DNA from: Gammaproteobacteria bacterium
GTDB lineage: Bacteria; Pseudomonadota; Gammaproteobacteria; Natronospirales; REEB76
Length of the DNA stretch: 64,000 nucleotides
Reading direction: 5' to 3'
Assembly: GCA_035279405.1 (NCBI GenBank)
Contig: DATEHU010000040.1
Coordinates: forward strand, 62,001-126,000
Of the stretch, positions 9,135 to 39,215 are shown in pieces; position 1 is the first letter of the stretch, and the number at the start of each line of letters is the position of its first letter. The notes beneath the pieces were generated by a model. The model saw only the letters and a program-made list of their open reading frames with translations, ran no database searches and had not been told where the DNA came from. Made by a program: the position numbers and the translations under genes.

Positions 9135-9835
9135 GCATCGAGCACAAATCCGGCCTGCCGGATCACGCCGAACAGGAAGATTCCGTCACGGATTATCTGG
9201 TTCAGCATCCGGAATTTTTCGAAAGCCACGTGGACGTGCTCGCCAAACTCAAGGTGCCGCACCCGGCCGGCCATGCGGTGTCGCTCATCGAGCGCCAGGT
9301 CGAGGTGCTGCGCCAGCAGCACCGCCAGATGGAACGCAAACTCGTGGACCTGATCGAGGTAGCGCGCGGCAACGACGCGCTCATCGAGCGCATCCACCGG
9401 CTGGCGCTGGCACTGCTCGAAGCCCAGACTTTCGCCGACCGCCTGTACGCCGTGCAGGAGGAATTGCGCAACCGCTTCGGCGCCGACGAAGTCAGCCTGT
9501 TCCTGATCAGCGAGCGCAGCGACAATCCCGATGCCGGCCCGGCGCGCTGGCTGCAGCCCGGGGATGGCGGTCTCGAGCAACTGCACGAGTTCCTCAAGGC
9601 CGGCAAACCTTACGTCGGACGGCTGCGCGCCCCGCAACTCGAATTCCTGTTCGGCACGCAGGCCGAGCGCATCACTTCGCTCGCGCTCATGCCGCTCGGC
9701 GTGCAGGGCAAGCTCGGCCTCCTCGCGGTCGGCAGCCATGAGGCCGACCGTTTCGGCCCGACGCTCGGTACCGCATTTCTCGCGCGCATCGGCGAGCTGG
9801 TGACGGCGGCCATCCAGCCGCTCTGGCCGGAATGA
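9131..9835 (+). CDS. DUF484 family protein
   Basis: Start at ATG 9131, inside the dapF stop. The 234-residue product begins with VTDYLVQHPEFFESHVDVLA, the typical DUF484 opening. A coiled region rich in Gln and Arg (VEVLRQQHRQMERKL) and a GAF-like C-terminal half follow. The family is a regular partner of dapF and xerC, but its function is not established. It overlaps xerC by four bases, so all four genes are likely one transcript. Confidence 0.92.
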   Translation: MSIEHKSGLPDHAEQEDSVTDYLVQHPEFFESHVDVLAKLKVPHPAGHAVSLIERQVEVLRQQHRQMERKLVDLIEVARGNDALIERIHRLALALLEAQTFADRLYAVQEELRNRFGADEVSLFLISERSDNPDAGPARWLQPGDGGLEQLHEFLKAGKPYVGRLRAPQLEFLFGTQAERITSLALMPLGVQGKLGLLAVGSHEADRFGPTLGTAFLARIGELVTAAIQPLWPE

Positions 9836-10746
9836 GCGCGCCGCTCAGCGCTGCAGTCGGAAAATTCATCGGACATCTTGCCCACGAGCGCCGTCTCTCG
9901 GTGCACACGGCGGCGGCCTATACGCGGGACCTCGACAGCTTCCGCCGCTACTGTGAACAGCAGCAGGTGAACGACTGGGGCGCGGTGGACATCCACCATG
10001 TGCGCGCATTCGTGAGCGCACGCCATCGCCAAGGCCTGTCGCCGCGCAGCTTGCAACGCCAGCTGGCCGCGATCCGCAGTTTCTACAATTATCTGCTGCG
10101 CGAACGCGCGGTGCGCAACAATCCGGCCAACGGCGTGCCCGCACCCAAGGCGCAAAAGCGCCTGCCGGCCACGCTCGATGCCGACCAGATGGCGCAGTTG
10201 CTCACGATCCAGGGCGACGATGCGCAGGCGGTACGCGACCGCGCCATCATGGAACTGTTGTACTCCTCGGGATTGCGGCTCGCGGAACTGCTTTCGCTGG
10301 AGCGCCACGCGATTGATCCGGGTGCCGCCGAAGTGCGCGTCACCGGCAAGGGCGCGAAAACCCGCGTCGTCCCGGTCGGGCGTAAGGCCCTCGGCGCGCT
10401 ACAGGATTGGCTCAAGGTACGCAGCCAGTTGGCCAAGCCCGAAGACCAGGCGCTGTTCGTCGGGCCGCGGGGCGGTCCCCTGAGCCCGCGCACCTTGCAG
10501 GCGCGCCTCAGGCGCTGGGGCCGCGCCCAAGGCGTGGCCCAGGGCATACATCCGCACCTGTTCCGGCATTCCTTTGCCAGCCACCTGCTGGAATCGAGCG
10601 GCGACCTGCGTGCCGTGCAGGAACTGCTGGGACACGCCAACGTCAGCACCACGCAGGTTTACACGCACCTTGATTTCCAGCACCTTGCCCGCACCTATGA
10701 CAAGGCGCATCCGCGCGCGCGGACCAAAGTGAGGGGTAAAGAGTAA
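9832..10746 (+). CDS. xerC: tyrosine recombinase XerC
   Basis: The 304-residue protein has a SAM-like N-terminal domain and the complete catalytic set Arg149, Lys173, His242, Arg245, His268 and Tyr277 (in SSGLRLAE, TGKGAKTR, HLFRHS, LLGHANVSTTQVYTHL). XerC with XerD resolves chromosome dimers at dif. The dapF-DUF484 context supports the housekeeping recombinase rather than a phage integrase. The last codons (VRGKE and stop) lie inside a dispersed GTGAGG-type repeat. Confidence 0.95.
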   Translation: MSAPLSAAVGKFIGHLAHERRLSVHTAAAYTRDLDSFRRYCEQQQVNDWGAVDIHHVRAFVSARHRQGLSPRSLQRQLAAIRSFYNYLLRERAVRNNPANGVPAPKAQKRLPATLDADQMAQLLTIQGDDAQAVRDRAIMELLYSSGLRLAELLSLERHAIDPGAAEVRVTGKGAKTRVVPVGRKALGALQDWLKVRSQLAKPEDQALFVGPRGGPLSPRTLQARLRRWGRAQGVAQGIHPHLFRHSFASHLLESSGDLRAVQELLGHANVSTTQVYTHLDFQHLARTYDKAHPRARTKVRGKE

Positions 10747-15308: not shown

Positions 15309-15465
15309 TCCCCCTTTGGAAAAAGGGGGGCGAAGCACGAAGTGCCGAGCGGGCAGCCATGGATGGCTGCCCCGGACTTTCGCATGCAGCAGGATTGCGA
15401 AGTGCGAAAGAGGGGGATTTTGCAAAGGAGGGGGCCGGGCGGCACGCGCGCATGCTGGGCCGGAA
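15309..15465. repeat. composite hairpin repeat, simple copy
   Basis: The gap between ubiJ and ubiB is filled by consecutive hairpins. They are CCCCCTTT facing AAAGGGGGG, GCAC-GAA-GTGC, and a perfect 10-base stem GGGCAGCCAT-GG-ATGGCTGCCC at 15351-15372. After them come CGGACTTTCG, GCAGGATTGCGAAGTGCGAA and AGAGGGGGA. The same framework with other stems is at 36715-37005. A reading frame runs through it into ubiB, but the protein similarity starts only at 15475. Confidence 0.8.
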
Positions 15466-17142: not shown

Positions 17143-17167
17143 CTGGAGTTTGTCTTAAAATCCTGAA

Positions 17168-17393
17168 CCGTTCGTGTTGAGCCCTTCGACAGGCTTAGGA
17201 CAGGCCCTTCGACAGGCTCAGGACAGGCCCTTCGACAAGCTCAGGACAGGCCCTTCGACAAGCTCAGGACAGGCTAGCGGAGCGCCGCTCCGCGAAGTCG
17301 AAACACGGAAAATCAGAGGCAAACAACCCTTCGATTTCGCTCAGGACAGGCCCTTCGACTTCGTGCCTGCGGCACTACGCTCAGGGTGAACGT
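17168..17393. repeat. dispersed CCGTTCGTGTTGAG repeat, copy A, with a tandem 23-base array
   Basis: The element opens with CCGTTCGTGTTGAG and closes with ACGCTCAGGGTGAACG, near reverse complements. Inside, four head-to-tail units GCCCTTCGACAGGCTCAGGA+CAG occupy 17181-17272 with one or two differences each. A GCGGAGCG..GCTCCGC hairpin follows, then a further partial unit near 17328. Copies without the array are at 26428-26536 and 39083-39194. Confidence 0.88.
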
Positions 17394-17415
17394 ATTTTAG
17401 GGCGGGTTCTGAGCT

Positions 17416-26402: not shown

Positions 26403-26427
26403 CGGAACCTATTTCCAAATTCTCTAA

Positions 26428-26536
26428 CCGTTCGTGTTGAGCGTAGCGGAGCGAAGCTCCGCGAAGTCGAAACAGGGAAAATCATGGTTTGAGACCCTTC
26501 GACTCCGCACTTATGGTGCTACGCTCAGGGCGAACG
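26428..26536. repeat. dispersed CCGTTCGTGTTGAG repeat, copy B
   Basis: Opens with CCGTTCGTGTTGAGCGTAGC, contains the hairpin GCGGAGC-GAA-GCTCCGC and closes with TACGCTCAGGGCGAACG. Outer ends are near reverse complements. It lies between the HIT gene and nudC and has no 23-base array. Confidence 0.88.
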
Positions 26537-26598
26537 ATATTCTGAGATATGTTCTGGTAAGGCTGTGGGATAATGCGAGCTCGTCGCAAAGTCGTTGC

Positions 26599-36714: not shown

Positions 36715-37005
36715 GACAAATCCCCCCGCGCGCTCGGCGCGCTTCCCCCCTTTGCAAAGGGGGGCGAGGAGCGACGCTCCGAGCGGGCAGCCATGGGCAC
36801 AGCGCGACGCGCTGTGCGGGAGACCATGGATGGTCTCCCTGGACCTGTACACGGCGCAGGATGGCAGAGTGTGCAGGGCTGCCCTGGACTTTCGGACGAA
36901 GCAGGGTGAGCGGCAACGCCGCGAACGCCCATACAGGATGTATGGGCTGGACTTTTGGCGAAGCAGGATTGCGCAGCCAACAAGCGAAGTACGATAGAGG
37001 GGGGA
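36715..37005. repeat. composite hairpin repeat, expanded nested copy
   Basis: This fills the 383-base gap before the LysE gene. In order: a perfect 20-base palindrome CCCCCCTTT-GC-AAAGGGGGG at 36745-36764, GGAGC-GAC-GCTCC, then an outer stem GGGCAGCC (36785-36792) with GGCTGCCC (36877-36884). The outer stem encloses GCACAGCGCG/CGCGCTGTGC (36797-36817), GGGAGACCAT/ATGGTCTCCC (36818-36839) and CCTGTACAC/GTGTGCAGG. After it come TGGACTTTCG, a GCCCATACA/TGTATGGGC hairpin, TGGACTTTTGG and AGAGGGGGG. No gene is seen in it. Confidence 0.85.
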
Positions 37006-37071
37006 TTTCAGTCATGTTGAATATACGTCGCCGCCCAATTCAATGCGCGACCTGAGCGCCGAACACTGAAT

Positions 37072-39020: not shown

Positions 39021-39082
39021 GGGCGGCTCGCGTCAAGATAAATGGAATGGTTTTTCATGAGAACGTATCTCAAGATTTCGAA

Positions 39083-39194
39083 CCGTTCGTGTTGAGCGTA
39101 GCGGAGCGCAGCTCCGCGAAGTCGAAACGCAGGATATTCTCGAATCCGATACCCTTCGACTTCGTGCCTTCGGCACTACGCTCAGGGCGAACGG
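39083..39194. repeat. dispersed CCGTTCGTGTTGAG repeat, copy C
   Basis: Begins CCGTTCGTGTTGAGCGTAGC, holds the GCGGAGC-GCA-GCTCCGC stem and ends CTACGCTCAGGGCGAACGG. It lies in the middle of the DUF969-DUF979 gap. Confidence 0.88.
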
Positions 39195-39215
39195 ATTTTG
39201 AGAAAGGCATTAGTT

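Follow-up and report, generated by a model that had tools for sequence, protein, structure and literature searches.

How does a bacterial DNA element come to hold complete hairpin structures within the loops of its own hairpins? The 36.7-kb element that raises this question lies in a window of 64,000 nucleotides, the whole stretch of DNA that we analyzed, from contig DATEHU010000040.1 (positions 62,001 to 126,000) of assembly GCA_035279405.1, a Gammaproteobacteria bacterium (REEB76). A first-pass annotation of the window had proposed that this element and a simpler one at 15.3 kb share a common framework, and this was borne out, as every motif that it quoted was found.

A structured module and its nested copy

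The shared unit, which we call the module, consists of hairpin A, hairpin B, the link TGGAC, and hairpin C, arranged in a cloverleaf-like manner inside an enclosing stem (Table 1). Hairpin A has the plan GC-GA-stem-GAA-stem-GA-GC, hairpin B is GGGCAGCC-ATGGAT-GGCTGCCC, and hairpin C is CTTTCGGAC-GAA-GCAggatTGC-GAA-GTCCGAAAG. An outer stem, AAATCCCCCC/GGGGGGATTT, encloses the module plus two base hairpins. The annotation had described the 36.7-kb copy as opened and holding further hairpins; we confirmed the insert in the B loop and found that the insert in the C loop is built on the same plan. The predicted DNA fold of the nested element had a z score of -7.5, and 0 of 200 shuffles were as good.

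Table 1. Features of the simple and nested elements (window positions; C40 coordinates follow the contig numbering; CM, covariance-model search of the own genome)
Feature	Position	Strand	Remarks
Simple copy, uninterrupted module	15310..15423	+	CCCCCTTT hairpin, then A-B-(C)GGAC-C, GGGGGATTT end; CM match C40:77329-77417, 102 bits
CCCCCTTT hairpin of simple copy	15310-15330		
Hairpin A of simple copy	15332-15350		GCAC-GAA-GTGC
Hairpin B of simple copy	15351-15372		
Hairpin C of simple copy	15377-15410		
Whole nested element	36715..37009	+	Outer stem AAATCCCCCC / GGGGGGATTT
Base hairpins 1 and 2	36728..36764	+	GCGCGC; CCCCCCTTT-GCAAAGGGGGG; sole content of G004 ortholog
Outer-module hairpin A	36766..36784	+	GGAGC-GAC-GCTCC within GA/GA and GC/GC
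Outer-module hairpin B	36785..36884	+	GGGCAGCC ... GGCTGCCC; loop opened by nested module
B arms of nested element	36785-36792 and 36877-36884		
Nested module 1, B loop	36796..36876	+	CM match C40:98796-98884, 67.5 bits
Parts of nested module 1	a 36797-36817, b 36818-36839, c 36845-36876		TGGAC between b and c
Outer-module hairpin C	36889..36997	+	CTTTCGGACGAAGCAGG ... AGCGAAGTACGATAG; loop opened past GCAGG
Nested module 2, C loop	36906..36982	+	GTGAGCGGC...GCCAACA; CM match C40:98905-98991, 66.9 bits; type polymorphic at ortholog of L017

The annotation had further held that stems change sequence between copies while their pairing is kept, and this proved true both within the genome that contains the window (the own genome) and beyond it. 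Among twelve uninterrupted own-genome copies, 96.1% of cells were paired (85.3% in shuffles) and 14 of 28 pairs had changed on both sides, compared with 6.0 in shuffles and 0 to 6 for slid structures. When 58 distinct modules, taken from several families, were aligned, 95.4% of cells were paired, both-side changes occurred at 25 of the 28 pairs, and cells changed on both sides numbered 384 versus 109 in shuffles, figures that lean toward the model because this alignment was fitted to it. In the same modules, the GGA motifs left unpaired in the B loop, link, and C loop were near-invariant. These observations support a conserved structure in the module family, and the near-invariant unpaired GGA shows constraint. 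Selection on structure, which the annotation had suggested, is itself not proven, because template switching between hairpin arms can yield compensatory changes without selection (PMC8794818).

Collecting the genome copies with a covariance model, seeded with the twelve uninterrupted copies, yielded far more than two elements: there were 72 matches at an E value of ≤0.1, a few of them weak, and the 2.46-Mb own genome holds about 60 to 70 module copies. The model matched 11 of 11 genomes of the genus, had 25 matches in one genome from a second genus of this family, and hit some of those from the order; in a sample of 369 genomes from the class, 11 were positive, spread over seven families. Records from Natronospirales, Natronospira, Thioalkalivibrio sulfidiphilus, Acidiferrobacteraceae, and Chromatiales were positive in an exact pattern scan. 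Viral contigs (IMG/VR) scanned with the conserved pattern contained no module, Rfam gave no relevant family for the window or for six loci, and neither nested modules nor tRNA-end units were described in the literature searched, which comprised papers available without subscription. One copy (L013, ~1501-1589; own C11:103782-103870) lies, in module orientation, within a 1956-nt stop-free frame and may be translated in a protein.

Probable growth at orthologous loci

We placed the flanks of 22 loci in three sister genomes and compared the intervals between them; the relatives are draft assemblies. Orthologous loci were found with no element, with base hairpins only, with a module, with a B-loop nest, and with a C-loop nest. 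At the 36.7-kb locus, G003 was empty, G004 had the base hairpins alone, and the own genome had the module with both nests; L021 gave a similar series, being empty in G003 and base only in G002. The own genome carried only the B nest at L017, where G002 carried B and C nests and G003 none. At L014, a B nest was present in the own genome and on one G004 contig, and the loop was uninterrupted in G002 and on another G004 contig. Allelic series were seen at L027, L021, L017, L014, and L008. The last of these loci (own C22:19592-19933) consists of three in-phase tandem modules, the third with a B-loop nest, and has one unit in the sister genomes.

Allele pairs also recorded the junction of the insert. 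The 5' arm was retained through GG, the next AT or ATT was gone, and the 3' arm was whole, and nested inserts in B and C loops came without a duplicated arm. Because the loop of insert-free alleles is the family consensus loop, gain is the simpler polarity. Losses occur too, as at the 15.3-kb locus, where G004 has the same form and G002 a deletion derivative (L217), which leaves the polarity of any single locus uncertain. Part of the allelic differences among GGGCAGCC parents could reflect gene conversion between copies at dispersed sites.

The same insert types were found in three parent subfamilies with different arms, namely, CCCCCTTT/GGGCAGCC (L010, L022, L027, and others), CCTCCTTT/GGGTTGCC (L093, L159, and L165), and CCCTCTCCC (L164). 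Most nested copies had a single B-insert type and a single C-insert type in common, as would be expected if a single composite had arisen once and been multiplied by homologous recombination, with nesting no longer ongoing. We consider that account very improbable, in that the same insert types occupy parents with differing arms, so that the nests did not all descend from one composite, and in that the orthologous pairs L017/L207 and L014/L221 differ solely by the insert. The allelic series and the nests in three parent subfamilies instead support what the annotation had suggested, growth by entry of hairpin modules into hairpin loops. L157 has three opening units and then three closing units, a three-deep nest that could in principle have originated by slippage, and L124 has one opening unit and three closing units.

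MITEs such as Correia/NEMIS are non-coding and dispersed and have terminal inverted repeats. The module is likewise non-coding and dispersed, and an imperfect inverted repeat, CTAAGAGCGTCTAACAAAATG, may correspond to MITE termini, but the module differs from MITEs in its growth through loop insertion. When terminal inverted repeats were looked for, a subset of copies had imperfect CTAAGRGC..CTAACAAAATG ends, and the AAATCCCCCC elements at L004, L018, L022, and L028 were bordered at their outer flanks by the imperfect terminal inverted repeat CTAAGRGCGTCTAACAAAATG, which has attC-like GTCTAAC/GTTAGAC ends. No clear target site duplication was found at the empty sites of L004, L002, and L029.

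Units at tRNA genes

Many divergent modules adjoin tRNA genes. Exact copies of their own ends were found near 13 of the 42 own-genome tRNA genes (control, about 1%): 5'-end copies lay upstream of seven (19 nt in five; 18 and 36 nt in the others), 3'-end copies, mostly 16 nt, lay downstream of nine, and none lay on the wrong side. Between fragment and intact tRNA were hairpin units, often 115 to 130 nt and too short for a gene. The segment that restores the tRNA was identical to the 5' 18 to 19 nt or mostly the 3' 16 nt, with the tRNA intact. Simple tandem duplication as the source of the fragments was set aside; most fragments stop at the same loop, and none is wrong-sided. A filled/empty pair was found at tRNA-Lys, where the flank AAGAATCCTCTGGT directly borders an intact tRNA in G003 and a 19-nt fragment plus unit in the own genome; the upstream unit is absent also in G002, G005, and G007. 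The number of units upstream of tRNA-Phe was two in G000 and G004, one in G002, and zero in G005. The units at tRNA genes follow the plan of A and B but often differ in the third hairpin, so that they are identified with the module partly by architecture. On both flanks of the G007 tRNA-Lys gene (L181), a 20-bp perfect inverted repeat, TTGGATTGTTCAGGCTCCCT / AGGGAGCCTGAACAATCCAA, prolongs the acceptor stem, and G003 has a 14-bp version.

The strand of the module at tRNA genes followed a rule, being sense in two of two upstream units and antisense in nine of ten downstream units, with the module at tRNA-Ser (L162/L269) as the exception. On either strand, the module comes after the 5' part of the first-read tRNA arm. 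An explanation at the level of RNA does not easily account for this strand symmetry, which bears on a reading in which the elements act as transcripts, with GGA hairpins that bind CsrA as CsrB/RsmZ do and nesting that adds sites. The B loop equals CANGGAYG, the CsrA/RsmA site consensus known from RsmX/Y/Z; 40 of 58 B loops match it exactly and 54 of 58 contain A(N)GGA, and GGA motifs are present in 53 of 58 C loops and 44 of 58 linkers. In loops whose closing A-T pair is broken, GGA is mostly followed by C, fitting the Y of the motif, and the own genome has csrA (L268:519-719; PF02599, E value of 5.8e-27). CANGGAYG was not clearly enriched across the whole window (33 versus 24.4 expected, with as many in 7 of 100 shuffles), and therefore the motif argument is one about the loops themselves. 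Like CsrB/RsmZ sRNAs, the module is a hairpin series with A(N)GGA loops and linker GGA, but it is nested, strand-symmetric at tRNA genes, and without an Rfam match, the Csr/Rsm families giving none in six loci even at an E value of ≤1. It also has many copies per genome, its orientation relative to genes has no clear bias (14 sense, 10 antisense, and 15 other by a longest-ORF heuristic), and the GGA strand is antisense in those nine downstream units. We therefore regard a CsrA-binding RNA array as an unlikely explanation of the repeat; a role of the module as RNA via CsrA, original or acquired, is possible from its loop sequences.

Phages and islands that integrate at tRNA genes duplicate the tRNA end and restore the gene. 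The tRNA-linked units do the same, but they are about 135 nt, gene-free, hairpin-built, and found at both tRNA ends. They might be very small integrative elements that a tyrosine recombinase, of the phage integrase or attC-like kind, moves by acting on tRNA attB sites and hairpins, given that the duplications resemble attL/attR and are located at D- and T-loops, that GTCTAAC/GTTAGAC flanks some copies, and that the own genome has three tyrosine recombinases. By Pfam, one of the three is phage-integrase-like and the other two appear to be XerC/XerD-sized; the units carry no gene, and the nested insertions in B and C loops lack a duplicated arm. Together these points make integration by a tyrosine recombinase quite unlikely. 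The window itself encodes, at 9832-10746 (+), a 304-aa tyrosine recombinase with an N-terminal SAM-like domain, probably XerC/XerD.

Candidate routes of insertion

We favor, at a probability of about 0.6, a reading in which the module is a mobile repeat, structured and non-coding, whose spread and growth result from copying into DNA hairpin loops. A new module would join straight after the GG of a loop, and because its own B (CANGGAYG) and C (GCAGGAT) loops bear GG, each module would supply fresh landing sites and so lead to nesting. In tRNA genes, the loop that comes first on each strand, the D-loop for one and the T-loop for the other, would serve as a landing site as well, and entry there would duplicate the tRNA end while the gene stays intact. 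We infer that single-stranded DNA is the substrate, given that the module nearly always lies in the strand of which the first loop was entered. A stalled nascent strand that switches template with GG microhomology would be the most likely route, with a putative single-strand recombinase as the alternative. Neither a mobilising gene nor a donor-to-target event was observed, and the own genome contained no match to reverse transcriptase (RVT_1).

The annotation had suggested a search for a linked gene such as a transposase of the RAYT type, and a RAYT link was not found. In a rival reading, the module would be a REP/REPIN-type element moved by RAYT or an IS200/IS605 Y1 transposase. REP, BIME, and REPIN elements (GTAG- and CGTC-tagged; PMC3733652) are, like the module, short palindromic repeats dispersed in intergenic DNA, and there is published precedent for REP dimers inserted within longer palindromes, as in A. 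variabilis GTAG-15, T. roseum GTAG-23, and H. neapolitanus CGTC-1 (PMC3733652). The own genome also contains four Y1_Tnp genes. However, reading the 3-kb surroundings of the four Y1 loci by eye showed no module, and Y1_Tnp was absent from three draft assemblies that carry modules, G003 (91% complete, 11 modules), G004 (39 modules), and G005. The 58-module consensus has no constant GTAG/CGTC tag at the hairpin foot, and the module is larger, with three hairpins, recursive nesting in its own loops, and tRNA-end duplications. Movement by such a transposase is therefore very unlikely. At L062/L064 (own C33:160505-161538), two adjacent RAYT-like genes are edged by AGAAAAGGGGTCAGTACCCTT-type inverted repeats that are distinct from the module.

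Mitochondrial double-hairpin elements and palindromic repeats of algae and fungi are hairpin-forming and enter intergenic DNA as well as existing hairpins. The module resembles them in this respect but is bacterial and defined, with conserved unpaired motifs and duplicated tRNA ends. The module might represent a new class of mobile DNA that recognizes single-stranded DNA hairpin loops, is copied in after GG, and is itself its own best target, forming recursive nests and accumulating at both ends of tRNA genes with duplication of exact tRNA ends; we hold this tentatively, at somewhat under even odds. The loci provide an allele-level record of complex structured bacterial repeats that grow by recursion and are tied to tRNA genes in a strand-symmetric manner. 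Confirmation would either establish a mode of DNA insertion directed at loops or reveal the reach of replication template switching, with implications for the gain of hairpins by tRNA genes, attachment sites, and structured RNAs.

Another family of dispersed hairpin repeats, CCGTTCGTGTTGAGCGTAGCGGAGC...CGAAGTCGAAAC / CCCTTCGACTTCGTGCC..GGCACTACGCTCAGGGCGAACG, occurs in the window at 17153-17400, 26413-26542, and 39068-39199, and its stems likewise vary from copy to copy.
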